Shown: piece by piece, positions 3,479-41,228 of the stretch | Position numbering within the stretch: the stretch's first letter is position 1 | Layout: every line of letters starts with the position of its first letter | Assembly (NCBI RefSeq): GCF_023277115.1 | Contig: NZ_JALQCS010000001.1 | Location: forward strand, 558,001-622,000 | Length of the DNA stretch: 64,000 nucleotides | Direction: 5' to 3' | From: Acidithiobacillus acidisediminis | Lineage (GTDB): Bacteria; Pseudomonadota; Gammaproteobacteria; Acidithiobacillales; Acidithiobacillaceae | Made by a program: the position numbers and the translations under genes | Notes under the pieces: generated by a model | Told to the model about the DNA's origin: nothing | The model's input: the letters and a program-made list of their open reading frames with translations, nothing else | The model's database searches: none

Positions 3479-5017
3479 TCACTCCAGTTCAACATCGTTG
3501 CGGTCCGGTCCAGCCTTCCTGGATTCCCGTTCTTGCTTCTGCTTCTCCCGCTCTGCCCTCTGCTTCTCTTGCGCCTTCTGACGCTGCCGATCCAGAAGTT
3601 GTTCGTGCCAGTACCGCTGGAAGCCGGTGCTCGCTTCCTGGGCGGGTTCCATCCCGGCATTCAGCGCGTCGTCCAGAGCCTTTTCCGGGATACGCACCGG
3701 GCCCGGCCTATCTGGGATCGTCAGCCCATAGTCCTCGACGGCGGAGTAGGAGATGGTCTTGCCGTCCCTCTCGAAGGACTTGCCCTCGATGGCGACCAGA
3801 TGCCGCAGTTGCAGGTCCTGGGACGCACGGGCTTTCTCGATGGCCGCGTTCTGATAGACGATGTGCGCCCGATAGTCGGTGCCCTCGATGAGGATGTAGC
3901 TGCGGTCGTACTGCTCGTCCAGGCCGGTGCCCAGCACCCGGCCTACCAGGCGTTCCCCCGGCCGGAGCCTGGTCACCTGGGGCGGACAGCGGGGTTCGGT
4001 CATGAGGGCGCGGGCATGGGCGACCATCTTCGTGCGGGTCTGCAGGATTTCCAGTTCCCGCAACGCCTTGGTCCAGCCCGCCTCCAGCGCCCAGGTGGAG
4101 GAAGCGATCTTCTGGGCCAGCCCCAGCCGCTCCAGGGACTCCAGCCGCCGCATCCGCAGTCGCTGGTCGGCGTAACCCCGGTCTCGGGGTTTCCGGACCA
4201 CCTCGGCAAGAAAAGACATCCCATCGGGCAAGGGCTTAGCCTGCCGTTCGATCTCCCGGTCCAGTGGCGTCAGTTTGCGGGCATCTATCTGCTGCTCTTT
4301 TGCCCGCTGGACCTCGGCGGGGGAGCGATAGCCCAGACGCTCGGTAGCCACCTCCGACGCCAGATCGCGCATCCCCTTCCGGATCAGGTCCGGGGCGATC
4401 TGCAAGCCGTTATTGCCGCGGATCAGCAGATGCACGTGCGGATGCCCGGTATTGTAGTGATCAATGGCGGCCCACTCGACCTTTTCCGGGTGCCCGGTCA
4501 GGTGCGGAGCCAGCCGGGCCATGTAGTCGCGGGTGTACTCCCGCAAGTCCAGCCGGTCGCCGTCTTCCGGGGCCAGAATGACCTTGAACAATCGGGGATC
4601 ACCAGCCAACTGCCAGTCTTGCAACCGGGATGCAAGCGAAACCTTATCCTGCTTGGCATCGAAGCCATGCCCCTTCTCGCCATCTTTCTGGGCATCCTCA
4701 CGCTCCAGATAACTCCCATGGGCCGCCCACTGTCCCTGCTTGCGGTTGGGAACGTAGTTGACCTTCACCGTCGCCCGTCGGGCGGCTCCGGCATTCGGCG
4801 CACCGCTCGGCGCGGGCTTGAGCGCTCGGCGGCCAGACAGGATGCCCGATACCGCCTTTGCCCCGGTCATCGATCGGGGCAGCGCCCGCCGCTCCGCCGT
4901 GATCCGGCGCAGGACGCGGGCCGCCTGAGGCCGGCCGCGCCGTTCCTCTTCCTCGATGGTACGGCCGCGAACGAAGGATTTGCCCGATACCGACGTATCA
5001 GATCGCTTCTCGCTCAC
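3479..5017 (-). CDS. Relaxase (VirD2/DUF3363-like mobilization nuclease)
   Basis: Product of 512 aa starting at GTG 5017, which overlaps the stop of the upstream gene (GTGA). A longer frame reaching 5521 is only a shadow of that gene. The core includes VNYVPNRKQGQWAAHGSYLE (around residues 85-105, containing the likely catalytic Tyr) and IDHYNTGHPHVHLLIRG (about residue 180), the three-histidine metal motif of relaxases. The C-terminal half matches the DUF3363 layout and ends in a highly charged coiled tail. It would nick oriT and pilot the strand to the coupling protein at 56.2-58.7 kb. Last gene of the topB operon. Confidence 0.85.
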   Translation of the reverse strand: MSEKRSDTSVSGKSFVRGRTIEEEERRGRPQAARVLRRITAERRALPRSMTGAKAVSGILSGRRALKPAPSGAPNAGAARRATVKVNYVPNRKQGQWAAHGSYLEREDAQKDGEKGHGFDAKQDKVSLASRLQDWQLAGDPRLFKVILAPEDGDRLDLREYTRDYMARLAPHLTGHPEKVEWAAIDHYNTGHPHVHLLIRGNNGLQIAPDLIRKGMRDLASEVATERLGYRSPAEVQRAKEQQIDARKLTPLDREIERQAKPLPDGMSFLAEVVRKPRDRGYADQRLRMRRLESLERLGLAQKIASSTWALEAGWTKALRELEILQTRTKMVAHARALMTEPRCPPQVTRLRPGERLVGRVLGTGLDEQYDRSYILIEGTDYRAHIVYQNAAIEKARASQDLQLRHLVAIEGKSFERDGKTISYSAVEDYGLTIPDRPGPVRIPEKALDDALNAGMEPAQEASTGFQRYWHEQLLDRQRQKAQEKQRAEREKQKQERESRKAGPDRNDVELE

Positions 5018-5622
5018 AAGAGTCCCCAGAAAGTCACCAGCAGAAACAGCATCAGCAGCAGGAACCCGGTAACCTGCCAGATGCGCCGGGTAACTCGATC
5101 GTCCCTGGCCTGCACCAGGCAGGCGAGGCCCGACAGCAACAGGAGCAGCGCCCCGGACGGGGCCATCAGCAACGCGCCCACGGCTCCACTCGACAGCCAG
5201 CGGGGCGGCCGCCCAACGGCGAGGAGGTACCCGTAGCCGGTACCCAGAGCGAAGGCGATGACCAATGCAGACAGGACCCCAAGCAGCGGATAGGCCCAGG
5301 CCCCCCAGGGCTCCGGCACACCTCGCTCCGCTTCGCCCGCATTGGCCTTTGGCTGCGTCGGCTGGGCCTCTGGTTCCCTGGAGGGGCTCCCCTGCTCTGG
5401 ACTGGATCGGGAAGCGGGACCACGCTCCAGCGCCTCGGCAATGGCGGCGGGACTTTCCCCCATAGCCGGTTCGGGAGCCGGAGGAAGTTGCATGGCCTTT
5501 CCAAAAAGCCTCCCGGCCCACCTCCAGCGCGGCACCCAGACCGTGCCGCCCGGCGTGTCCTTGCGCAGGGCGCGGGGCGGAATGTACGGCTTATTCTGAA
5601 AGTCGGATTTCGTCTTCTGCAT
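5014..5622 (-). CDS. Membrane protein in mobilization operon
   Basis: About 202 aa from ATG 5622, preceded by GGAGGAATGGGGTG. The first half is soluble and Pro/Glu-rich; the second half has three membrane segments (WAYPLLGVLSALVIAFALG, a Gly/Ala/Leu segment SGALLLLLSGLACLV, and TGFLLLMLFLLVTFWGLL at the very C-terminus). It overlaps the genes on both sides: its start lies within the 90-aa gene and its TGA overlaps the relaxase GTG. I do not recognise the family. Coupling to the relaxase suggests a membrane anchor or accessory of DNA processing. Confidence 0.65.
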   Translation of the reverse strand: MQKTKSDFQNKPYIPPRALRKDTPGGTVWVPRWRWAGRLFGKAMQLPPAPEPAMGESPAAIAEALERGPASRSSPEQGSPSREPEAQPTQPKANAGEAERGVPEPWGAWAYPLLGVLSALVIAFALGTGYGYLLAVGRPPRWLSSGAVGALLMAPSGALLLLLSGLACLVQARDDRVTRRIWQVTGFLLLMLFLLVTFWGLL

Positions 5623-9001: not shown

Positions 9002-9030
9002 ATGATAGCGTGAACCGTTCACGCTATCAT
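9002..9030. promoter_or_regulatory. Perfect 29-bp palindrome, likely operator
   Basis: ATGATAGCGTGAAC and its exact complement flank one central C. The palindrome ends 27 bases before the ATG of the winged-helix protein gene, an ideal position for autoregulation. I see no matching copy elsewhere in the window. Confidence 0.65.
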
Positions 9031-9057
9031 TTGTGGTACCAACTAGGGAGCGCAGGC

Positions 9058-9753
9058 ATGAAGCGGAAAAAGACGCTGGAACAGAAAACCTGGGATCGGG
9101 AACGGGTGATGGCGGGGCGGAAAAGGCTGCCACCCATCATCCAGGGTCGGATTCTGGCTGCGGAAGGCATCACCCTATCGCCTCAGTGCGCCACATTACT
9201 GCGGGCTATCCTGGAACAGACCACATGGGGGAGCGATCAATGGATCTTCGACGGAGTGGTCGGGCTGGTGGCGCAGCAGGCCGGATGCTCCACCGCTCAG
9301 GCGAACCGGTGTGTCAGTCGCTTCGTAGAGTTGGGCATCCTCGCCCCGACGAAAGCGTCCAATGGGTGTGGGAAGCCGAAGGAATACATTGTCCGCGCTG
9401 GATCGGGGGCCTCGGCGGAGCCGAGGCCGGAGCGAAGGATTATAGCGGGGCAGGAAAACCTTCCGTCCAGCATCCGGGGTCGGATACTGGCCGCGGATGG
9501 CCTCACCCTGTCGCCTCGATGCGCCACGCTGCTGCTGGCCATCCTGGAACAGACCGTGCGGGGGAATGATCAATGGATATTTGACGGAGTGGTCGGGGTG
9601 GTGGCGCAGCAGGCCGGATGCTCCACCACTCAGGCGAAACGGTGTGTCAGTCGCTTCGTAGAGTTGGGCATCCTCGCCCCGACGAAAGCGTCCAATGGGT
9701 GTGGGAAGCCGAAGGAATACATTGTCCGTGTCGAAGCGGAAATGCTGAGCTAA
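9058..9753 (+). CDS. Tandem-duplicated winged-helix DNA-binding protein
   Basis: A 231-aa protein from ATG 9058, with AGGGAG upstream. It contains two near-identical halves: LSPQCATLLRAILEQT...VSRFVELGILAPTKASNGCGK (about residues 35-110) and LSPRCATLLLAILEQT... (about 145-222). Each half looks like a winged helix: a helix, AQQAGCSTAQANRCVSRF as helix-turn-helix, and GKPKEYIV as the wing. The 3' portions of the halves are almost identical at DNA level, which suggests recent duplication or gene conversion. A perfect palindrome lies just upstream, so a two-domain monomer could bind both half-sites. Probably an element-encoded autoregulator. Confidence 0.65.
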   Translation: MKRKKTLEQKTWDRERVMAGRKRLPPIIQGRILAAEGITLSPQCATLLRAILEQTTWGSDQWIFDGVVGLVAQQAGCSTAQANRCVSRFVELGILAPTKASNGCGKPKEYIVRAGSGASAEPRPERRIIAGQENLPSSIRGRILAADGLTLSPRCATLLLAILEQTVRGNDQWIFDGVVGVVAQQAGCSTTQAKRCVSRFVELGILAPTKASNGCGKPKEYIVRVEAEMLS

Positions 9754-12217: not shown

Positions 12218-13204
12218 CTATCCGGTCAGCGAACGCAAAGGGATGGCCTCCCAAGGGACGAAATACGTCTTGACGATGCGATCCGGGAAAGCCGCTGCGC
12301 GTTTCTCCACACCGGGCAACGCTCGCAACGGTTCCCGCCAGGATCCGTTGCGATGCCAGAGGGTACCGCTGAGCACCTCAGCAAGTTCAGGACTGCGTAC
12401 CGCCACCACAAGGTAGGGGAGGCCGTTTCGCCACTTTGCGGCCAGACCCACAAGGGCAAGGGCGTGTTTACTGGCAAGATCCTCACACATAGCCGATTCA
12501 TACAAGGCATGGCCTACCAGCGTCGTCTCTGGACCTCTCCGCAACGGGGCACAGATCAACGCTCTCAGGAAGGCCTCCGGATCTCGGAGCCCGGATCGGT
12601 CAGTTTCCCAACCCCGCTCAGCAGCGCGCTCCTTCGGCAGAAACGCCCGCAGATCTATCCCGTGATGGTCCCACATGGCGTTGAGGAGGGCTTCCTGCCG
12701 GTCGGGCAAGCCCATCCCCATGGCCCGGAAGTTCCGGGCATAGGATTCAACGAGCCGGGCCATCCGGCTTACCCGCTCTACTTCCTGGGGGTCGAAGTCG
12801 GGAATTCCACAGGAGGGCTTGCGGGGCCGCTCCCGCAACGCCTTCTCGCAGGCGATGAAGTACCTCCGGGCTTCCCGGCCCTTGTGGTTGTTCTCGACCA
12901 TGGCCAGCTCCTTGGCCATGTCGAGGGTGAGCAGGTACTCGATGGTGCGCTGGGCGCGGGATTTTGAGCTCCCCAAATTTGGGGAGCTCAAACTTTCAAT
13001 ACAAACATAGTCTTGCCCTTCGATGAATCCGAACTTGGCAATACGGTCCTTGATCCAGGTCGAAAAGTCCTTGCCCGCCTCCAAAAAGCTGTGCAGATCG
13101 CGGGCATTGGCGGTCGGGAGGGCTTCCTGGTCCAGATCCGCAGTCTGGATGGGCAGCAAACGGGCTATTTCCAGGTCCTGGTTCTGGGAAATGCGCTTTT
13201 CCAT
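12218..13204 (-). CDS. AntA/AntB-type antirepressor with extra C-terminal domain
   Basis: A 328-aa protein from ATG 13204 (AAGGAG 8 bases upstream). Residues about 30-110 match the phage AntA/AntB antirepressor domain: NARDLHSFLEAGKDFSTWIK and then IEYLLTLDMAKELAM and REARRYFIACEKAL. Phage antirepressors of this class inactivate repressors. The C-terminal 75 residues (ALALVGLAAKW..., GTLWHRNGSWREPLRALPGVEK) recur at the end of the large P-loop protein at 13.7-16.3 kb. It sits next to the candidate origin, which makes control of replication or of the S24 repressor the likeliest roles. Confidence 0.75.
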   Translation of the reverse strand: MEKRISQNQDLEIARLLPIQTADLDQEALPTANARDLHSFLEAGKDFSTWIKDRIAKFGFIEGQDYVCIESLSSPNLGSSKSRAQRTIEYLLTLDMAKELAMVENNHKGREARRYFIACEKALRERPRKPSCGIPDFDPQEVERVSRMARLVESYARNFRAMGMGLPDRQEALLNAMWDHHGIDLRAFLPKERAAERGWETDRSGLRDPEAFLRALICAPLRRGPETTLVGHALYESAMCEDLASKHALALVGLAAKWRNGLPYLVVAVRSPELAEVLSGTLWHRNGSWREPLRALPGVEKRAAAFPDRIVKTYFVPWEAIPLRSLTG

Positions 13205-13234
13205 GGTGATCTCCTTGGCTGTGAGTTCCATGGT

Positions 13235-13257
13235 GGTATAGCCAAGAGGCGTTGCGG
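13235..13257 (-). promoter_or_regulatory. Backbone promoter motif before antirepressor gene
   Basis: Minus strand: CCGCAAC, spacer ending GGC, TATACC; 31 bases from the ATG at 13204. Confidence 0.6.
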
Positions 13258-13328
13258 CCAGGGGCTGCGCGGCGTCCGGCATGGCAGCCTGCATTCTGGC
13301 GATAAACAATCCTTTATTTTTCAACAAC

Positions 13329-13613
13329 CTTACCACTCTTACCAAAAGCTATACCAGATGGTAAGGGAAAAATGTCTTAATTTTCATAGGTCTTACCATC
13401 CTTACCACCCTTACCGCAAAATGACACTCGTAGCGAGGAAAAATTTCGTTTTTTAGATGGAACTGATTCTCATATAGGGGAGAGGTTCGGAAAAATTTTT
13501 TTCTCCATATTTTGGTGTCAAAAGCGGTAAGACCGGTAAGGGGCGGTAAGGTATCTGAAAAATAAAGAAAAACTCCCTTACCATCTGGTATAGCTTTTGG
13601 TAAGACCGGTAAG
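13329..13613. other. Candidate replication origin: symmetric CTTACC iteron array
   Basis: Twelve CTTACC/GGTAAG hexamers lie in 285 bp, many at 9-base periodicity (13329, 13338; 13392, 13401, 13410; 13526, 13535, 13545; 13599, 13608). The left and right halves are mirror images. A 30-bp perfect inverted repeat joins 13338-13367 to 13575-13604, and each inner triplet ends in CTTACCGC followed by four A or T and TGACAC. The centre, 13436-13510, is very AT-rich. No gene fits here. This resembles an iteron-type oriV or a strong partition/regulatory site, next to a P-loop replication protein. Confidence 0.65.
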
Positions 13614-13643
13614 GGGGTCGGTCGTTGAGAGGCTCCAGGCAGC

Positions 13644-13669
13644 AAAAAAAGACCGCCCATCAGGCGGTC
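13644..13669 (-). terminator. Rho-independent terminator of the P-loop replication gene
   Basis: Minus strand: GACCGCC / GGCGGTC stem (13651-13669) with a 5-base loop, followed by seven T. It lies 25 bases past the stop at 13694 and separates that gene from the iteron array. Confidence 0.85.
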
Positions 13670-13693
13670 AAGGCAGGTGATTGGAACTCACAG

Positions 13694-16294
13694 CTACATC
13701 AGGAGACTGGCCACCGGATGTCTGGGATGTGGGGCCTCCCCCGAATCTGCATCCAACACGATCGGCAAGGCCGCTACCGGTATGAGATACACCTTCACCG
13801 ATGTCCCTCGTAGCCACGCGACTTTTTTCTCTACGCCGGGCACTTCCCGAAGCGCCGACCCCCAGGATCCGTCCGCGTGCCATCGGGTCCCGCGAAGCAA
13901 ATTGGCCAGGCCCGGGTTGCGCACCGCCACAGCCAAACATGGACTATCTCCCGTCGTCTTGACGGCCATTCCCGCCATCGCAAGGGCTTTTTCGTCATCG
14001 GGGTCCGGGGTGGGCTTTCGCAGCACACGGGCGATGGTCTCCCCCACCGTATCGGTGACCCGCTGTACCCGGTCGTCACCGTTTTCGGTGCTGACGGTCT
14101 CTTCGATGGTCAGGATCGCCGAGCAGAGCGCCTGCAGAAACATTTCGGCCTCGCTGGCCTGCTCCCGGGCTTCGGTCACCTGTTCGGCGTGGTCGTACAT
14201 GACGGCCTTCGCCATGTCCTGCATGGGCACTCCCGGCATGGCTCCAGCCGTCCATGCGGCGGCGATGAGCGTTCCGAAGGTGTCCGCCTCGCGGGCATCT
14301 CCCCCGGGGGAGAGATGGGGCCACTCCGATTTCAAGGCGTCCAGGGCCTTCCTGAAGCGGTCCCAGCGCTGGATCGTTCCCCAGAAGAGTATCCGGGCCT
14401 CATTCAGGGACAGAACCGCTGGTTGCCTGGACCGGGTGATGAGGGGTCTCAGGTAGATCCGGACGATGCGGCTGGCGTCCGCCGGTTCGAGCGTGGGGTC
14501 CGATATGGACCCCAGGGCAAAACTTGTGGCGATACGGAAGCTGCGCCCTTTCTGGTCGGACGTGCCCTTGCGCACGTCGCCGCGGGCGCTGTAGGCCGAG
14601 CGCATGAGGGAGAGCATCCCGGCCGCGTTCTGCGCCGCACTCGCGGATTGGCTGGTTGCCTCCCGCTCCAGCTCATCGAGGATGCACGGGGAAGAACTGC
14701 TCTCCAGCGCCTGCCGGATGCCGGCGGGGGTGGATTCCTTGCCCATGTCGGTGAACCAGGCGTAGCCGCCCAGAGCGTGGTTCAGATAATCCAGCAAGGT
14801 GGATTTGCCGGAGCCTCTGGGCGAGATCAGCCAGATGCTCGGCCGGGCTTCCAGGGCTCCCAGAAACACCGTGGACAAGGCCCAGCCAAGGACCAGGAGG
14901 GCGGAACTCCGGTAGCGGAAATTCCAGGTGCCGAAATCCCCCAGGATTCGGCGAAGCACCTGGTCGTATTCCGCCTCGCCCGCCCGGACGTAGGACGGTG
15001 GCTGATTCTTGCCCTGGGCCGTGTAAATGTTGCGCCGGTCCTCCGCCAGCCGCTCCACCGGCTGGCCTGTGGCGTCGAGCGCCCCGTCCCGGCGGACGAT
15101 GACCAGACCACCCAGGTCCGGATCGTGCCAGACCCCGCAACCCCGCACCCGGCTTTCTTCCGAAAAAACTCCCCGGGTGATGCAGGCGTCGGTGATCTCC
15201 CGCCCGGCGCGGGCTGCGTCGAAGCGGGGATTGCCGTGCGCGTCCAGGTCCCCATAGTGGCTCTCGAAATACCCCCTGCCCATGATGGCCACCAGCATGG
15301 GCTGCTGCGTCAGGGCCGAGAGGGAAACCGTCATGAGGTTGTCTTGCGGCCGCGACCAAAGCACAACCGCGTGGCTATCGCTGCTCATGCCCAGCGGCAG
15401 GTATCCTCCGTCCCGCGCCGTGGCATCCGTGTTGGTGGCCCGCTCCACCAGTGGAGCAATCAGGGCAGAGTACGCCTGGCCGGCGTCTTCTCCCGCATCG
15501 ACTAGCAGGTCGTCGAGGCCTCGATGGCGGAGCGTGCGGGACTTCCCTTTGCCTTCCTGGGCCGGGGTCACCCATCCGGCGGATACCCGCAATCCCGTGA
15601 TAGTCCCCCGGATGAGCTTCGCCGCCTGAAGCGCGGCGAAGTACACGTCGGCGTTGAGGACATATCGCCCGCCGTTCAATCCGGTATAGCTGTCGATCCG
15701 TTCCAGCGGGACTTCGGATTTCTTGAGGGGCCTGCCGTCGGAGTCGAGGAGGACAATCAGGGTGTGGAGCCCGTAGTCTTCCACCAACCGGTGCAGCAGG
15801 TCGGCCAGCTCGGGGAGCAGGCCCCGTCTTGCTTCCTCGTCTTTTCCAAGCGGGTTCCGGAACATGCGGATGCCGGGCAGGGCCAGGGTCGGGATGCCGG
15901 CCTTGCACCCGGCGATGGCTTTTTTCTCCCCTTCGGTGAGCACGGCGACCCCCGCAGAGGCGTGGGGCAGGGCATCCAGGAATTGAGACGGAACATAGAC
16001 GTGTGAGCCTGACCCCGAGGGGGCCAGATAGCGGGGCGTTTCCCCATCGTGGGCCCCCAGCAGGCGCAGCCGCAAAAAAGGGACATCCTGATCGGCCATC
16101 GGCGCTCCCTTCAGAGCGTAGTACGGGATGCTGTACGCGCCTTCGGCGTGGATGCGTTGCTCCCGGTCCCGTCGCAGAGCGGCCCGGGCCGCGACATGAT
16201 CCAGGACCTGCGCCCCCCGAACATCGGCCAGCGTCAGGCCCGACCGCGCAAGGTCGGCCTCCGCGAGATTTTGCAGCGTTTGCTTTTCGACCAT
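13694..16294 (-). CDS. DUF3854/DUF927-like P-loop ATPase, probable replication helicase
   Basis: About 866 aa from ATG 16294, preceded by AGGTGA; an ATG at 16324 has no ribosome site. The N-terminal third contains VAVLTEGEKKAIAGCKAG (about residue 140), the Toprim-like DUF3854 pattern found in plasmid and phage primase-helicases. A P-loop ISPRGSGKSTLLDYL lies near residue 490, and SPCILDELEREA looks like Walker B. The last 80 residues repeat the C-terminal domain of the antirepressor (GTRWHADGSWGSALREVPGVEKK). Two tandem backbone promoters precede it and a terminator follows. Position beside the symmetric array suggests origin melting or priming. Confidence 0.7.
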   Translation of the reverse strand: MVEKQTLQNLAEADLARSGLTLADVRGAQVLDHVAARAALRRDREQRIHAEGAYSIPYYALKGAPMADQDVPFLRLRLLGAHDGETPRYLAPSGSGSHVYVPSQFLDALPHASAGVAVLTEGEKKAIAGCKAGIPTLALPGIRMFRNPLGKDEEARRGLLPELADLLHRLVEDYGLHTLIVLLDSDGRPLKKSEVPLERIDSYTGLNGGRYVLNADVYFAALQAAKLIRGTITGLRVSAGWVTPAQEGKGKSRTLRHRGLDDLLVDAGEDAGQAYSALIAPLVERATNTDATARDGGYLPLGMSSDSHAVVLWSRPQDNLMTVSLSALTQQPMLVAIMGRGYFESHYGDLDAHGNPRFDAARAGREITDACITRGVFSEESRVRGCGVWHDPDLGGLVIVRRDGALDATGQPVERLAEDRRNIYTAQGKNQPPSYVRAGEAEYDQVLRRILGDFGTWNFRYRSSALLVLGWALSTVFLGALEARPSIWLISPRGSGKSTLLDYLNHALGGYAWFTDMGKESTPAGIRQALESSSSPCILDELEREATSQSASAAQNAAGMLSLMRSAYSARGDVRKGTSDQKGRSFRIATSFALGSISDPTLEPADASRIVRIYLRPLITRSRQPAVLSLNEARILFWGTIQRWDRFRKALDALKSEWPHLSPGGDAREADTFGTLIAAAWTAGAMPGVPMQDMAKAVMYDHAEQVTEAREQASEAEMFLQALCSAILTIEETVSTENGDDRVQRVTDTVGETIARVLRKPTPDPDDEKALAMAGMAVKTTGDSPCLAVAVRNPGLANLLRGTRWHADGSWGSALREVPGVEKKVAWLRGTSVKVYLIPVAALPIVLDADSGEAPHPRHPVASLLM

Positions 16295-16321
16295 CTCTGT
16301 CACCTGCGCAAGGTTTATGTA

Positions 16322-16344
16322 CATATAGCGGCTATTCGTTGCGT
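16322..16344 (-). promoter_or_regulatory. Backbone promoter motif, start-proximal copy
   Basis: Minus strand: ACGCAAC, spacer ending CGC, TATATG. A variant -10 with the conserved CGCAAC and spacing, 28 bases before ATG 16294. Confidence 0.45.
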
Positions 16345-16366
16345 CCCGATGCCGACCGCCTTTCCG

Positions 16367-16389
16367 GGTATAGCCGGGATCCGTTGCGA
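16367..16389 (-). promoter_or_regulatory. Backbone promoter motif, distal copy
   Basis: Minus strand: TCGCAAC, spacer ending GGC, TATACC, 73 bases before ATG 16294. Together with 16322-16344 it makes a tandem pair, back to back with the polA site at 16448. Confidence 0.6.
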
Positions 16390-16447
16390 TTCGTCACCAA
16401 GCCCTTCGATCCCCGGATCCCCGCGGGAAAATCCCGCTGTCTGCGCA

Positions 16448-16470
16448 TCGCAACAACCCGCGGCTATACC
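16448..16470 (+). promoter_or_regulatory. Backbone promoter motif before polA-like gene
   Basis: TCGCAAC, ten bases ending GGC, TATACC; 51 bases before ATG 16522. The upstream 11 bases are almost identical to those of the ssb site. Confidence 0.65.
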
Positions 16471-16521
16471 TACCCGTGGGCCTGGTTCGTCCAGGCGTCG
16501 GGAACAGCAGGAGGAATTCTG

Positions 16522-19365
16522 ATGAACTGCGTAGTGGTGGTGGGCAACCGGATTTTTACCCCGGATGAAGTCATGGATATCGCGCTTGGAGACGCCGTCT
16601 GGGACAACGCGACCAGGACGCTGACCTATGTCAAAGGAACCCAGGCGGAGGATTTTGAATCTTCCGTGGGTACCCCTATCCAGCTGGCGGCGAACGATGG
16701 AAACGGCTTGGATCTATCCAGAGATCCCGGGGGTACCTGGGAAAACGAAGAAGATACGGATCCGCACCTGGGCCTCGATGATCTGGGGGAACCGACGGTG
16801 CGATCCCCGGTATTGGAACCCGGGTTTACCGCATTGGAGGAAGAGCGCTTTTCGCCAGCGGCCGCGGAGGAGGCAGCGTTTGCAGGATCCGAGCGCCTGC
16901 CGGAGACCCTGGCCGTGCTGTCCGCTGCCGATGCCGTGGTGCTCGACGTCGAGACGACGGCCCTCTCGGCCTATGATCACCCGGTGGCACCGGCCTTCTC
17001 GCAGAAGATCGGAGACAAAACCATCAAAGAACTGCTTGTAGCCGGCTGCTCCCTGGACATCCGGCCCAGGGCACGGGTGCTATCCCTCTACGTCCCACAA
17101 GACGGGTATCGGGTGGCTTTCGATCTGGCCCGTTTGATGGAAGACCACCGGGCCGCACTGGCCGGAGCCCTCCACGACAAGGTATGGATCGGCCATAACC
17201 TGGGTTTCGACTACGCCTGGATGCTGGCCTTGCATCCAGAGGTCCGGCCCCGGCGCATCATCGACACCCTGTTGCTGGCCACGACGCACCGGCCCCAGGC
17301 CCTGTACGAGATGCAGGCGGCGCTGGTCACCAACGGGATCCACGAGTGGAACATACGGGACGCCCTCTGGGACTATGTGCAAGGGAAGCTGTCCCGCAAA
17401 AAACAGGACGACGGCGACGGCGGGGCGCTGTCCCTGCAATCTCTGTCCCTGCTCTACCTGCAGGAAAGCCTCGACAAATCCTACCAGAAGCCACACAACT
17501 GGATGGTGGACCGGCTCACCCGGGCGCACTGGGAGTATTGCATGGGGGACGTGGAAACCCCTCTGCGCATTGCCCGCAAGCTCTTGCACCTGCCCGAAGA
17601 GGCGGACGCCGTCCAGATATTGCAAGCCCTGGATGGCGATGCCCGGGCGGCTCCGGCGTACCGGATCCTGGAAACGGCGCTCCATACCATAGCCCGGATG
17701 CACCACAAAGGGGTGCCCTGGTCCGCCGAGCGGGCTGCCGCTCTCGATGCGGATCTGGCTCGGGAGGCCCGGGAAGCGGCGGAGAAACTGCTGGAGATCG
17801 CGCCCGAGCTGAGGCAGACCATCGAGGTGCCCGGCAAGCCCACAAAGAAGCACCCCGACCCGGAGCCCTGGAAGATTTGCCCCATAGAAGATCTGCTATC
17901 GCCCAGCAAGGGGCTGACCGCCCCCGTAAAAGAGGCCATCGCGCACGCCATCGTGCAGGAGACGGGCAATTCGGCCCTGTTTCACTCGCCGGGCGGCGAC
18001 GGCCCGGCGGAATCCATCACGCTGGACGCGAAGCAGTTGGCCTTCGACTATCCCGATTCCCAAGTGGTCAAGCTGCTGGCCGCCGTGCAAGGCGCGGTAA
18101 AAGAGCGGGCGATGCTGTGTACGCTGGCCGCCTGTGCGCGAGACACGCGGGACGGGCGTATCCACCCCCTGACCGGCGTCACGACGATCACCGGACGGAC
18201 CTCCGCCACCAATCCGTCCTTGCAGCAGGTACCCCGGGACCCCCGATTCCGGGGGGTGTTTGCGGCTCGTCCCGGGCACCGGATCGTGGCCACCGATTTT
18301 GCTTCCATCGAGCTGCGAATTGCCGCGGCGCTCGGGGTGCGGGCCTGGGAGGTGCTGTCCGTGGTGGTGGACGCCCTTTCCCGCGGCCGGGACAGCCCAC
18401 ACTACAAAAGCCTTCCCCGAATCCGCAAGCGGATTGGCTGGATACTGGAGCACTGCCCGGACTTGGTAGCGTATCTGAAAAGCGGCGATCCGGACCCGCC
18501 GGATAGCCTGATAGAAACCGATCCGCCCGTTTTCGGCGAAGCCGCGATCGAGGACTACGCCCGGTCCGCGGCCTGCGATCTGGCAAAGTGGGTTTCCCGC
18601 CTACGCAAGGCAACCGGAGGGGACCCGCAACGCTTACCCTTCCGCGCAGTGTACCTGCACGGCCTGGATCCGCATTTGCTGACGGCCATCGCCATGCGGG
18701 CTCAGTCCGGAGAATTTGACCTGCGGGGGATGTCGCCATTGCAGTACCTGCAAAGTCTCCCGGCAGAGGAAACCGACATCCTCAAGAAGCGGATGAAAGA
18801 CGCCCGGCAGGCGGCGAAGGTCGTCAACTTTGGTGCGCTATACGGCCAGCAGCCGGCTGGTCTGCACCGCTTCGGGGTGGTGGGGTACGGGCTCAGATGG
18901 ACCGGGCAGGAGGCCGCCCAGGCCCACGAAGCCTGGTTCCGCCTGTACCCGGAGATTGGCCTGTGGCACTGGCTGATCCGTCGGTTTTTCGTGCAAAAAA
19001 AGCAGCCGATCCTGAATCCGTACAATCCGGTAGAGGCGGACCTGACCGGCAAGATTTATCGCTGGTCCACGCTGTCCGGCAGGATAGTCCTCTCTTCCAA
19101 GCTGACGTCCGCAGCCAACTATCAGGATCAGGGTACGGGAGCGGAAATCGCACTGCTGGCCATTGGCACCCTGCCCCAGGACATCCAGGCCATGCTCATC
19201 AATTTCGTGCACGATGAACTGGTTCTGGAGGTCCCGGAAAGTCGGGTAGATGAGGTAGTGCAGATCGTCGAAAAGACTATGGTGGAGGCCGCCAACCGAT
19301 TCCTGATGCCCTATGGAGTGCCCGCCGCCGTCGAGACGCAGGTGGGGGACGCGTGGGTGCATTGA
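16522..19365 (+). CDS. Element-encoded family A DNA polymerase with 3'-5' exonuclease
   Basis: A 947-aa protein from ATG 16522, preceded by AGGAGGAATT. It has no 5' nuclease domain; instead about 120 variable residues lead into a DEDD exonuclease (DVETTALS near 141, [10 protein letters not shown] near 224). The polymerase core has motif [16 protein letters not shown] near 590, motif [12 protein letters not shown] near 766 and motif [11 protein letters not shown] near 895. About 160 residues separate motifs A and B, longer than in E. coli Pol I. This looks like a replicative or gap-filling polymerase carried by the element, with ssb downstream under a sister promoter. Confidence 0.88.
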
Positions 19366-19462: not shown

Positions 19463-19894
19463 ATGTCTGGAGTCAACAAAGCCATTTTACTCGGTCACCT
19501 GGGCCGGGACCCGGAAATGCGGTACATGCCCGACGGGACCGCCAACGCTACCCTGAACGTGGCAACGTCCGAGACCTACAAAGACCGCGACGGCAACAAG
19601 CAAGAGCGTACGGAGTGGCATCGGGCAGTTTTCTGGGGCCGGACGGCCGAGGTCGCGGGGGAATACCTTCGCAAAGGCAGCATGGTCTACATTGAGGGTC
19701 GCCTGCGCACCCGCAAATGGACGGACAAAGAGGGTCAGGACCGCTACACCACAGAGATCGTCGGCGACCGTCTCCAGATGGTTGGTGGACGACGGGATGG
19801 CGACGCTGACGACCGCGACGGCCAAGGTGAGTCGGACAGAGGTAAGGGAATGGATCCGGTCCCTGGGGACGAGTTCGACAATATCCCGTTTTAG
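19463..19894 (+). CDS. ssb: Single-stranded DNA-binding protein
   Basis: A 143-aa SSB from ATG 19463 (AAGGAG upstream). It starts [20 protein letters not shown], the OB-fold hallmark, followed by [20 protein letters not shown] and the [15 protein letters not shown] strand. The C-terminal tail is acidic and ends DEFDNIPF, the tip that recruits partner proteins. It would coat transferred or replicating single strands of the element. It is shorter than chromosomal SSBs in the linker. Last backbone gene before the cargo. Confidence 0.95.
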
Positions 19895-22007: not shown

Positions 22008-23132
22008 TTGCCCAGCCCAACACCAGAGCGCAGCCCGGAGCTCCGCAAGATCATCCACGTGGATATGGATGCCTTCTTTGCAGCGGTCGAGCAACGCGAT
22101 CGGCCAGAGCTCCGTGGTCTGCCGGTGATTGTCGGTGGCGACCCCAATGGCCGGGGCGTCGTTGCGACGTGCAGCTATGAGGCACGACGATTTGGTATCC
22201 GCTCGGCCATGTCCGCAGCCAAGGCCCGTTCGCTCTGCCCCCAGGCCATCTTTGTCCGTCCCCGCATGGAAGCCTATCGGGAGGCCTCCCGCCAAGTGAT
22301 GGCCATCCTGCGCAGTTACACACCGCTGGTGGAACCCCTGTCTCTGGATGAGGCCTTTCTGGATGTGACTGCCGTAACGGCCAACGGAACCCTGGCAGGC
22401 GAGATCGCTCGGGAGATCCTGGATCGCATCCATCAAGAAACGGGGCTAACGGCTTCAGCAGGGGTCTCCTACAATAAGTTGCTCGCCAAGCTAGCCTCCG
22501 ACTGACGTAAGCCCCACGGGCTTTTTGTCATTCCACCTGAGCGCGGCCTCGCTTTCTTGGCGCCGCTGCCCGTTGGCAAGCTACATGGCGTGGGTCCGGC
22601 AACCGTCAAAAAGCTCTCGGCGATGGGCGTGGAAACGGTCTTGGATCTACGGAACCTCTCGCTGGAGTTTCTTGTGACCCATTTCGGCAAGTCGGGAGGC
22701 TGGTTTTACGACGTGGCGCGGGCGATCGACGAGCGGCCGGTACAGCCGTCCCGCCAGCGGAAGTCGGTGGGAACCGAACGCACCTTCTCCAAAAACTTGG
22801 AGGATCGAAGCGTCATGCGGACTACGCTACAGGAAATGGCCGCGCAAGTTGCGGCCCGCCTCCAGGCCTTGAACCTGGCGGGCCATACCGTGAATATCAA
22901 AGCGCGCTTTCCCGATTTTACCACGGTCACCCGAGCATATACGGCGACCGAGGGCATCGGAAGCGTGGATGCTATCGCGGCCTTGCTACCAGAGTTACTC
23001 GACCGAGCCGTTCCCAAGAGCGCGTCCGTGCGCCTGCTGGGGATCACCGTGAGCAGCTTGGTCGACGTCCTGGAAGCGAGCCAGGTAGCACACCAGTTGT
23101 GCTTGCTGGACGAAATCCTCAACCCGCGGTAA
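22008..23132 (+). pseudogene. dinB: Y-family DNA polymerase IV, copy 1, with nonsense codon
   Basis: Starts at TTG 22008 like copy 2 and is collinear with it throughout. A TGA at 22503-22505 replaces the Trp of KLASDWRKPHG, splitting the frame into 22008-22505 and an open remainder to 23132. The catalytic blocks [24 protein letters not shown] and [12 protein letters not shown] are in the first part; the thumb/little-finger domain and a clamp-binding-like HQLCLLDE tail are in the second. The rest of the sequence is undamaged, so inactivation is recent. It is an inactive paralogue unless the TGA is read through. Confidence 0.85.
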
Positions 23133-26051: not shown

Positions 26052-27173
26052 TTGCCCAGCCCACCAGAGCGCAGCCTCGCTCTCCGCAAAATCATCCACG
26101 TGGATATGGACGCGTTCTTTGCGGCTGTGGAGCAACGCGATCGGCCAGAGCTCCGTGGTCTGCCGGTGATTGTGGGTGGCGACCCCAATGGCCGGGGCGT
26201 CGTCGCGACGTGCAGCTATGAGGCTCGACGATTTGGGATCCACTCGGCCATGTCGGCGGCACGGGCTCGCTCCCTCTGCCCGCAGGCCATCTTTGTCCGT
26301 CCCCGCATGGATGCCTATCGAGAGGCCTCCCGTCAGGTTATGGCTATCCTGCGCAGCTACACACCACTCGTGGAGCCACTGTCGCTGGATGAGGCCTTTC
26401 TGGACGTCACTGCTGCCACCGCCGATGGTATCCTGGCGGTCGAAATCGCCCGTGAGATACTGGGCCGCATTCATCGGGAAACGGGGCTGACCGCTTCGGC
26501 AGGGGTCTCCTACAATAAGTTGCTCGCCAAGCTCGCCTCCGACTGGCGCAAACCCCATGGGCTTTTCGTTATCCCGCCCGAACGTGGCCTCGACTTCCTG
26601 GCGCCGCTGCCCGTTGGCAAACTGCATGGTGTGGGTCCGGCCACTGTAAAAAAACTATCCGCTATGGGTATCGACACCGTCTCGGATTTGCGGGCGATGA
26701 CGCAGGAGCGGTTAATGAGGTGTTTCGGTAAGGCTGGAGCTTGGTTTTACGAAGTGGCGCGGGGGATCGATAGGCGGCCCGTGCAGCCGACCCGCCAACG
26801 GAAATCGGTGGGTACGGAGCGGACATTCTCGGAAAATCTGGAGGATCGAAGGACCATGCTGGCGACGTTACAACAAATGGCCGGGCAGGTTGCGGCCCGT
26901 CTCCAGGCACTCGCCTTGGCGGGCTGCACGGTGAACATCAAGGCACGCTTTCCCGATTTTGCCACGGTCACCCGAGCGCACACGGCGACCGAGGTCATCG
27001 GGAGTACGGAAACCATCGTGGCATTGCTACCAGAACTACTGGATCGGGCAGTTCCTCAGAGGGCGTCCGTGCGTCTGCTCGGAATCACAGTGAGTGGCCT
27101 CGCCCAAATCCAGGCGGCGAGCCGCGGCGCCCGCCAGCTGAACTTGCTGGACGAAATCTCCGATCTGCGGTAA
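26052..27173 (+). CDS. dinB: Y-family DNA polymerase IV, intact copy 2
   Basis: A 373-aa enzyme starting at TTG 26052 with GAGGAGG upstream. All Y-family blocks are present: [55 protein letters not shown] and the helix-hairpin-helix VGPATVKKL. The little-finger domain follows, and QLNLLDE near the end resembles the beta-clamp binding motif. It performs error-prone translesion synthesis. It is a close duplicate of 22008-23132, which is broken by a nonsense codon. The shared upstream leader suggests the same regulation. Confidence 0.93.
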   Translation: MPSPPERSLALRKIIHVDMDAFFAAVEQRDRPELRGLPVIVGGDPNGRGVVATCSYEARRFGIHSAMSAARARSLCPQAIFVRPRMDAYREASRQVMAILRSYTPLVEPLSLDEAFLDVTAATADGILAVEIAREILGRIHRETGLTASAGVSYNKLLAKLASDWRKPHGLFVIPPERGLDFLAPLPVGKLHGVGPATVKKLSAMGIDTVSDLRAMTQERLMRCFGKAGAWFYEVARGIDRRPVQPTRQRKSVGTERTFSENLEDRRTMLATLQQMAGQVAARLQALALAGCTVNIKARFPDFATVTRAHTATEVIGSTETIVALLPELLDRAVPQRASVRLLGITVSGLAQIQAASRGARQLNLLDEISDLR

Positions 27174-36926: not shown

Positions 36927-39048
<2,122 letters not shown>

Positions 39049-39102
39049 GGGAATCTCCTCGAGGTTGTTCATAGCAAGTGCAAAAACAGTTCTGATGGAC
39101 TA

Positions 39103-39133
39103 TTCTTACAACCGTACCTGGGTACGGAGTCAA
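39103..39133 (-). promoter_or_regulatory. MerR-controlled mer promoter with 19-bp spacer
   Basis: On the minus strand -35 TTGACT (39133-39128) and -10 TAAGAA (39108-39103) are separated by exactly 19 bases, the overlong spacer of MerR-activated promoters. The spacer holds the perfect dyad CCGTACC-TG-GGTACGG (39112-39127), where MerR binds and untwists DNA on Hg(II) binding. Lies between divergent merC and merR. Confidence 0.9.
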
Positions 39134-39138
39134 CAACC

Positions 39139-39546
39139 GTGAAATCTCAAGAATCGGTACTCACGATTGGCCGCCTCGCGGAAGATGTGGGTGTCAACGT
39201 CGAAACGATCCGTTTCTATCAACGCAAGGGTTTACTACGCGAGCCCCCTCGTCCCCCTGGAGGGATTCGTCATTACACAGCAGAGGATGGAGCGCGGCTG
39301 AAATTTATCAAATCTGCGCAACGTCTGGGATTTAGTTTGGAGGAAATCCATCACTTACTTTTACTGGATGAGGGCATGCGCTGCAGCAAGGCGGCACAAA
39401 TCGCTGAAGATCATTTGACAGAAGTTCGCGCGCGTCTGCAGGATCTGCAGAGAATCGAAAACATCTTGGCAAATCTACTCGAGCAATGCAGTCGAGGGGA
39501 TAAGGATGTGGCATGCCCTCTCATTGCGGCATTGCAAGCGGACTGA
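39139..39546 (+). CDS. merR: Mercury-responsive regulator MerR
   Basis: A 135-aa protein from GTG 39139. The winged-helix start (LTIGRLAEDVGVNVETIRFY) and the dimerization helix are standard. Cys at positions 82, 117 and 126 are exactly the three Hg(II) ligands of Tn501-type MerR. It represses and, with Hg(II), activates the divergent merCA operon through the 19-bp-spacer promoter, and probably represses itself. Confidence 0.96.
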   Translation: MKSQESVLTIGRLAEDVGVNVETIRFYQRKGLLREPPRPPGGIRHYTAEDGARLKFIKSAQRLGFSLEEIHHLLLLDEGMRCSKAAQIAEDHLTEVRARLQDLQRIENILANLLEQCSRGDKDVACPLIAALQAD

Positions 39547-40178: not shown

Positions 40179-41228
40179 TCAGCGTAGGTTGTACCAGACC
40201 CCTCGGCCACTGCCGTGCAGGCTTAGCGTGCCGTGATCGACCAGCGCCCGAAAATGTTGCTTGAGCGTGTTGCGGCTAGCCCCGGTCAGTTTCATGACCT
40301 CACCGATGGTGACGCGGCCGTGCTCTCGGGCGAACTCAACGATCTGTAGCTGCAGTTCCGGCATGGCCGCCAGCACGATCTTTTCGCGATCGACCTTCTT
40401 TTCCAGGCGCCGAACCTGCTCGGCCAAGGATCTCAGGAAGAACATCAGCCACGGCTGCCAATTTGGCGCCTCTGTGCGGATCGTGCCTTGGGTCTGGCGC
40501 AAGGCCAGGTAGTAGGCTTCCTTGCTCTGCTCAATCACGCTCTCCAGAGAGCTGTAAGGCACATAGGCGTACCCGGCCTGCAGCAGCAGGAGCGTGGTCA
40601 GCACCCGAGAGAGCCGGCCGTTGCCATCCTGAAAAGGGTGGATCTCCAGGAACACGACGACGCACAGTGCAACGATCAACAGTGGATGCAGCCGGGCCGT
40701 CTCACGTTCCCGGTTCACCCACGCCACGAGCTCCGACATCAGGCGGGGCGTATCGAAGGGGGATGCGGTCTGAAACACGATACCGATCTGTGCGCCGGCT
40801 TCGTCAAAGGCGGCGACACTGTTCGACGTGGTCTTGTAGTTGCCACGATGCCAAGTGTCCTTCTCGCTGTAGCGCAGGAGGATCTGGTGCAACTGCTTGA
40901 TGTGGTTCTCGGTGATCGGGATGTCCTGCCAGGACGCAAACACCAGGTCCATCAGATCGGCGTAGCCAGCCACTTCCTGCTCATCACGGGTCGCGAAGGA
41001 CTTGATCTCCAGATTCGACAGCAGATGCTCCACCTCCCGGTCGGACAGCTTGCTGCCCTCGATGCGGGTCGATGAGCCGATGCTCTCGATGGTGGCCACA
41101 CGACGCAGGGCCGACAGCCGGTCGGGCGCGAGCGTGCCCAAGGCGCGCCAAGCGCCTTTGAACTCATCGATCCGGGCGATGAGGCCCAGGATCTCCGGCG
41201 TGATCTGGATAGTGTCGGTTCGCAGCAT
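40179..41228 (-). CDS. Fic-domain protein with C-terminal winged helix
   Basis: A 349-aa protein. An N-terminal Fic_N-like helical region contains the inhibitory-type SIGSSTRIEGSKLSDREVE. The Fic core has HPFQDGNGRLSRVL, matching HPFx[D/E]GNGR, so AMP-transfer chemistry should be intact. The last 70 residues (ITIGEVMKLTGASRNTLKQH as VTIGEVMKLTGASRNTLKQH) form a winged helix, suggesting it binds its own promoter. Two tandem copies of CGCCCATTTA/T at 41241-41260 lie just upstream of the start and could be the operator. Fic proteins modify target proteins such as topoisomerases or act as toxins. Confidence 0.85.
   Translation of the reverse strand: MLRTDTIQITPEILGLIARIDEFKGAWRALGTLAPDRLSALRRVATIESIGSSTRIEGSKLSDREVEHLLSNLEIKSFATRDEQEVAGYADLMDLVFASWQDIPITENHIKQLHQILLRYSEKDTWHRGNYKTTSNSVAAFDEAGAQIGIVFQTASPFDTPRLMSELVAWVNRERETARLHPLLIVALCVVVFLEIHPFQDGNGRLSRVLTTLLLLQAGYAYVPYSSLESVIEQSKEAYYLALRQTQGTIRTEAPNWQPWLMFFLRSLAEQVRRLEKKVDREKIVLAAMPELQLQIVEFAREHGRVTIGEVMKLTGASRNTLKQHFRALVDHGTLSLHGSGRGVWYNLR

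Follow-up and report, generated by a model that had tools for sequence, protein, structure and literature searches.

A mirror-symmetric iteron array beside a helicase-type replication gene as the probable origin of an Acidithiobacillus ICE

Why should a dozen copies of one hexamer be packed into less than 300 bp next to a replication gene? The DNA analysed here (the window: 64,000 nucleotides of Acidithiobacillus acidisediminis, bases 558001-622000 of a 2.78-Mb contig) contains such an array immediately 3' of rep, a gene for a primase-helicase-like protein. A sequence-only reading had proposed that the array is a candidate origin of replication, and placed it on a plasmid. The first proposal gains support from conserved arrays in relatives and from the matching grammar of the EcCICFT073 origin, and an origin function is proposed here from that comparison. 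The second does not stand: the carrier is a chromosomal ICE.

Architecture of the array and its neighbouring genes

The hexamer count gives 12 exact copies of CTTACC/GGTAAG within 285 bp (13329-13613), where about 0.07 would be expected by chance (Poisson P ~2e-23). The 64-kb window holds 31 exact copies in total versus 15.5 expected. When all hexamers are scanned for 350-bp clusters across it, the array reaches 12 copies and every other place 6 or fewer. Genome-wide, pairs of CTTACC with a 3-base gap occur at five sites in the array and at one site outside. The twofold symmetry that had been described is borne out, each of the 12 hexamers having a mirror partner of opposite orientation about an axis at ~13471 (tolerance 0.5 bp). 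In the sense of rep, that is, reading the minus strand, the orientations are ++-+++ on one side of the core and ---+-- on the other: a pair, an inverted single, a triplet, the core, an inverted triplet, a single and an inverted pair, with steps of 9, 22, 32, 10, 9, 116, 9, 9, 32, 22 and 9. Five steps are thus of 9 bp and one of 10 bp, in agreement with the many 9-base steps first noted. The outer arms do form a perfect inverted repeat, although of 32 bp rather than the 30 bp reported, and the short motif said to lie in each arm is found in both. The "75-bp AT-rich core" corresponds to the AT-rich part (76 bp, 68% AT) of a larger core, since the gap between the innermost iterons spans 110 bp (64% AT). 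The features are as follows, with iterons given by their start positions.

12218..13294, minus: AntA-domain protein; start codon uncertain, 13294 or 13231
13329..13343, plus: outer iteron pair, left arm (CTTACC at 13329 and 13338)
13337..13368, plus: left 32-bp inverted-repeat arm, containing CTTACC...GCTATACC...GGTAAG
13360..13365, minus: single inverted iteron, left arm
13366..13391: AT-rich spacer between outer group and inner triplet, left (26 bp, 73% AT)
13392..13415, plus: inner iteron triplet, left (13392, 13401, 13410; 9-bp phase)
13416..13525: core between the triplets, 64% AT (13437-13512: 68%), symmetry axis 13471; putative melting site
13526..13550, minus: inner iteron triplet, right (13526, 13535, 13545)
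13551..13576: AT-rich spacer, right (26 bp, 73% AT)
13574..13605, minus: right 32-bp inverted-repeat arm, with GCTATACC as in the left arm
13577..13582, plus: single inverted iteron, right arm
13599..13613, minus: outer iteron pair, right arm (13599, 13608)
13669-13651, minus: intrinsic terminator of rep (GACCGCC-TGAT-GGGCGGTC-TTTTTTT)
13694..16324, minus: rep, 876-aa primase-helicase-like protein; DUF3854 Toprim-like N-terminus, P-loop at ~504-508, C-terminal domain 775-857 (proposed iteron binding, by analogy)
16003..19365, plus: family-A DNA polymerase with 3'-5' exonuclease, motifs A/B/C intact, divergent from rep; true start probably near 16520
19463..19894, plus: single-strand DNA-binding protein (SSB)

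The role suggested for the core is borrowed from SaPI/PICI origins (PMC6092414). An extra copy of TGGTATAGC, a motif of the outer arms that is not an iteron, lies at 13234-13242 near the start of the AntA gene, and a TATACCAGA-type motif is also retained within the outer arms of the array of a related element (L010, below). Searches for DnaA boxes and IHF sites returned one-mismatch matches only, to which we give no weight, and Rfam and tRNA scans of the window returned no matches.

Both flanking genes had been recognized from their reading frames as a P-loop replication-type and an AntA-type protein, and domain assignment (DUF3854 plus P-loop, and AntA) bears this out. Along the minus strand the order is rep, terminator, array and AntA-domain gene, with 81 bp from the rep stop to the first iteron. 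The terminator placed on one side of the array is the minus-strand hairpin that closes rep, and the relatives L009 and L010 show it too.

Sequence profiles say little about Rep. DUF3854 is its sole Pfam match, with no match to DUF927 or D5; PHROGs labels a related family as DNA primase; searches of PDB sequences with Rep and with profile A1 gave P-loop noise only, and a search of viral contigs with Rep as single protein query gave no matches. A structure model of residues 296-876 (mean pLDDT 71) finds as its best fold match the SCCmec Cch active helicase (5dgk, E 6e-9, 609 alignment columns), followed by NrS-1, D5/E5-type helicases and PriRep1 (7pds). The TM-scores against Cch are modest (0.38-0.42) and thus support membership in the fold, not a particular domain arrangement; the model supports placing Rep among predicted Cch/D5-type helicase initiators. 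The C-terminal domain modelled in isolation (pLDDT 82) had no significant match to a solved structure, the top-ranked hit being a plasmid DNA-binding protein bound to its DNA site (E 0.57), and its DNA-binding role therefore rests on analogy.

The AntA-domain protein is connected to Rep through this same domain: its C-terminus (272-353) is a copy of the Rep C-terminal domain, 46% identical over 82 aa. In L010, the counterpart (L010:11719-12750) has Bro-N in place of AntA, followed by a copy of the domain 53% identical over 99 aa to that of its own Rep. Each copy is nearer to its own Rep than to that of the other element (46% versus 34% in the window, 53% versus 49% in L010). The AntA and Bro-N proteins, at equivalent positions and with a common C-terminal domain, have the appearance of an N-terminal domain swap. 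Given the shared domain, the AntA/Bro protein is probably a second ligand of the iterons, regulating the origin, the promoter of its own gene, or both.

A chromosomal ICE carries the array

Beyond the window, the contig carries 55-bp perfect direct repeats of the tRNA-Phe 3' end (contig 524301-524355 and 627381-627435). Between them are encoded a tRNA-adjacent integrase, ParA/ParB, VirB8/CagX/TrbL/TrbE/TrbB-type proteins, a relaxase-like protein, a topoisomerase, a coupling protein (T4CP) and an S24/HTH regulator. Integrase, relaxase, T4CP, Trb-type T4SS and direct repeats in a tRNA gene, the features that define an ICE, are all there, and the element is an ICE of ~103 kb inserted in tRNA-Phe, with the array at ~47 kb within it. 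With the window lying inside a 2.78-Mb contig and an ICE, we rejected the plasmid interpretation. Classification as a PICI (a small, helper-packaged phage satellite) was likewise rejected for an element of this size with relaxase, T4CP and Trb T4SS. Comparable ICEs are found in A. caldus and are known to excise (PMC3826726). The GC skew of the 103-kb element shows no clean turn at the array; the cumulative GC minimum lies 4.8 kb and the TA maximum 3.1 kb from it, but this signal is weak and confounded by gene orientation, and we do not count it as support.

The ICE carries several IS elements. At window 9010-9753, a 247-aa HTH-like protein consists of two near-identical halves of ~95 residues, a recent internal duplication. 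Two near-identical Y-family (DinB-like) polymerase genes lie at 22008-23132 and 26052-27173, the former broken into two reading frames and the latter intact, suggesting duplication and decay. Probable mercury resistance occupies 36948-39546, with a MerA-like reductase bearing a heavy-metal domain and a MerR-like regulator assigned from sequence alone, and a Fic-domain protein at 40182-41228 strongly matches the SoFic defence model. Near the right end of the ICE is a type III restriction-modification pair (window 60353-63085 plus L040:201-1340; res, 910 aa, and mod), and after mod a 903-aa protein (L040:1365-4073) with PHP and SMC-like ATPase domains that matches the PADLOC Ppl defence model.

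Arrays in relatives and competing explanations

The closest named relative of the genome is Acidithiobacillus sp. YTS05, in which the array is identical to that of the window at 301 of 301 positions. For a wider comparison, we inspected the flanks downstream of every rep homologue for hexamer clusters. All seven loci with at least 30% Rep identity and readable flanks have an array, located 3' of rep or of a rep-polA pair: L037 (98% Rep identity, CTTACC); L010, a second element in YTS05 (rep 67% identical, CTTACA); L027 (GGTTAC); L028 (TGTTACC, the array after a rep-polA pair with a 135-bp gap); L029 (two adjacent arrays, CGCACA and GTAACC); L032 (TGTTACC); and L035 (GGTTCC, on a contig that holds the rep 3' end only). 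Except in L037, the hexamer differs from that of the window. The sequence-only reading had named loss of the array from close relatives with the neighbouring replication genes as evidence against it. The outcome favours that reading: YTS05 retains these genes and an unchanged array, and all family-level relatives with readable flanks have one at the same place, its hexamers mostly altered. L010 also preserves the surrounding gene order (SSB, PolA, rep, array, regulator, then the same small ORFs). A search for the array at the DNA level in plasmids returned only fragments of antA; hexamers and cores diverge, so that such a search is insufficient and protein-led searches are required.

Among loci with 20-30% identity, arrays occur in three small Arsenophonus plasmids (GTTACC, GTTGTA, ATTACA), an Atlantibacter plasmid (L043), Bdellovibrio phage phi1422 (L066) and the related IMG/VR phage contigs L080 and L085, and in an Acinetobacter phage on the 5' side of the rep homologue. 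Counts of a single hexamer per 350 bp 3' of the initiator gene reach 7-13 (L010, L037, L027, L029, L032, L042, L060, L068, L043, L066), whereas shuffled sequences give maxima of 4-6, in a test that was chosen after the window had been seen and on loci that are not mutually independent. No comparable cluster lies 5' of rep among these genes, the Acinetobacter phage excepted. No array was found downstream of L033 and L034, the most diverged G005 copies, in the 696 bp that remain on the contig of L030 (a G011 relative), or within 1.3 kb of many distant helicase homologues, mostly from large phages and including the majority of those found there.

Across elements the hexamer changes (CTTACC, CTTACA, GTTACC, CGCACA, GGTTCC, GTTGTA, ATTACA) while the mirror layout is retained, as expected if the partner protein changes along with its sites. 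With the same script, the mirrored iterons number 12/12 in the window, in the second L029 array (L029b) and in L066, 14/16 in L035, 12/14 in L028, L032 and L060, and 12/13 in L068; symmetry is not significant for L027, L029a, L043, L047 and L080. At L029, two full arrays with different hexamers (12995-13300 and 13620-13960) share one upstream rep, as if two origin specificities occupied the same locus. In the Atlantibacter plasmid (L043:8560-9000), the left half has mostly GGTAACA and the right half GGTAATA, so that the two halves of one putative origin have diverged.

These distributions bear on what the array does. It could serve only as an operator, its hexamers bound by the AntA protein or by Rep to regulate antA, with no origin function. 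The antA start, 35-98 bp from the array, and the Rep-like C-terminal domain of its product are compatible with this, and a regulatory side role is likely. As the whole explanation we find it unlikely, given that no AntA-type gene adjoins the array in the family relatives L027, L028, L029 and L032 or in the mobile-element loci L042 and L066. In YTS05, moreover, the array is unchanged although an insertion of ~1 kb that has an IS-like end now lies between it and antA. No sigma-70-like promoter was found in 13150-13800, and a 12-site mirror array around an AT-rich core far exceeds the needs of an operator.

Two alternatives invoke other functions of the ICE. Centromeres too are iterated sites, and the element encodes ParA and ParB, but parAB lies at the far left end, ~40 kb away; in other elements the array goes with rep rather than par, and its hexamer varies together with rep, making a partition site extremely improbable. 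It is equally hard to credit that the array is part of the conjugative oriT: inverted repeats are typical of such sites and a relaxase is encoded at 3482-5521, but ~8 kb separates this gene from the array, and phages and small plasmids without an annotated relaxase have such arrays too. Finally, the array might be a former origin, now inert in a stranded and permanently integrated island, as a chromosomal location and several IS elements would allow. We regard this as very unlikely, because the twelve sites, both arms, rep, polA and ssb are all intact, the YTS05 array shows no change, and perfect attachment repeats and an integrase are present.

Proposed function and comparison with known origins

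From this comparison, the array is very probably the vegetative origin of the ~103-kb ICE, at which Rep would bind and the core would melt, with forks leaving both ways after excision. The symmetry and the hexamer count far beyond chance point to an origin, as do the clustering of Rep, PolA and SSB beside the array and the synteny of this module in the 67%-identical element. We suggest that Rep, with its Toprim-type N-terminus, acts as a replicative helicase that loads itself, and that the C-terminal domain would hold copies of the protein on the 9-bp-phased CTTACC iterons of both sides. Occupancy of both iteron sets would place a helicase assembly on each side of the AT-rich core, the two facing in opposite directions; as the core melted, two helicase rings, and with them two forks, would depart in opposite directions. 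Bidirectional replication would begin once the ICE is excised as a circle, and the family-A polymerase and SSB of the ICE would probably aid priming or synthesis. Binding and melting are proposed by analogy with SaPI Rep and SCCmec Cch2: both use the C-terminal domain to recognize iterons directly downstream of their own genes (PMC7581432).

With its presence in a conjugative ICE that has another initiator subfamily, and in related phages and plasmids, the layout would become a replication cassette of general occurrence in mobile DNA. We put forward tentatively, as a possibility somewhat less likely than not, that a mirror-iteron origin with its matching self-loading helicase is a free-standing cassette of conjugative ICEs, small plasmids, phages and phage satellites rather than a hallmark of PICIs alone. 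On this view, the second protein of the Acidithiobacillus ICEs, an interchangeable AntA or Bro-N domain fused to a duplicate of the initiator C-terminal domain, would recognize the same iteron code as the initiator and, by competing with it, turn the origin on or off. Such fusions suggest a simple route to an origin regulator, namely borrowing the DNA-reading domain of the initiator. The proposed origin gives acidophile ICEs a testable means to multiply after excision, and since the hexamers vary in nature alongside diverging initiators, the helicase recognition code can be tested directly.

The nearest counterparts are the origins of SaPIs and PICIs, in which two iteron sets lie around an AT-rich region immediately 3' of rep (PMC6092414). 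The EcCICFT073 rep-ori replicon has been functionally tested in E. coli (PMC6092414), and we used it as a positive control: its intergenic region has 11 GGTAGA iterons, 10 of them exactly mirrored, in the order 2-1-3/2-1-2, versus 2-1-3/3-1-2 in the window with the same relative orientations. EcCICFT073 differs in having one iteron fewer, a shorter core (25 versus 110 bp) and other spacers. The window shares with SaPIbov1 and EcCICFT073 the facing iteron sets across an AT-rich region and the site 3' of the initiator gene (PMC6092414, PMC7581432), together with a predicted helicase of the Cch/D5 type and iterons particular to each element, here CTTACC versus CTTACA in the 67%-identical paralogue. 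It departs from them in its host, a 103-kb conjugative ICE with Trb-type T4SS and ParAB and not a phage satellite; in its initiator, which combines a DUF3854 N-terminus with a Cch-like predicted helicase fold whereas that of EcCICFT073 is D5_N/DUF5906, the P-loop alone being common to both in profile comparison; and in the additional AntA/Bro protein with the initiator's C-terminal domain.

SCCmec Cch/Cch2 modules similarly combine a self-loading helicase with repeats recognized directly downstream of its gene (PMC7581432), and SCCmec pattern 2 adds a family-A polymerase with a small ssDNA-binding partner (PMC10061031). The putative origin of SCCmec type V, however, has three iterons (PMC7581432) versus the 12-site mirror array of the window, where the polymerase is full-size, has an exonuclease and is paired with a canonical SSB. 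TnGBS1/2 are likewise ICEs whose replication has its own machinery and does not depend on the relaxase (PMC5704250), but they use two distinct theta systems of their own. Within the acidithiobacilli, IncQ plasmids of the pTC-F14 family have repeated initiator-binding sites too (PMC12375680); these are 22-bp iterons served by RepC with a separate helicase and primase, and they lack a two-sided hexamer mirror array. A classical one-directional iteron origin (Rep_3/IncQ, with direct iterons and a small non-helicase Rep) was rejected, as the iterons are mirrored and the initiator is large and helicase-type. The contrast first drawn with such plasmids is therefore correct, but the arrangement is not unprecedented, two-sided symmetry being the hallmark of SaPI/PICI origins; a 2018 survey reported that layout in no other known bacterial replicon. 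What is new here is the conjugative ICE as host, the initiator subfamily, the spread of the array, under other hexamers, to phages and plasmids, and AntA/Bro neighbours that reuse the C-terminal domain of the initiator.
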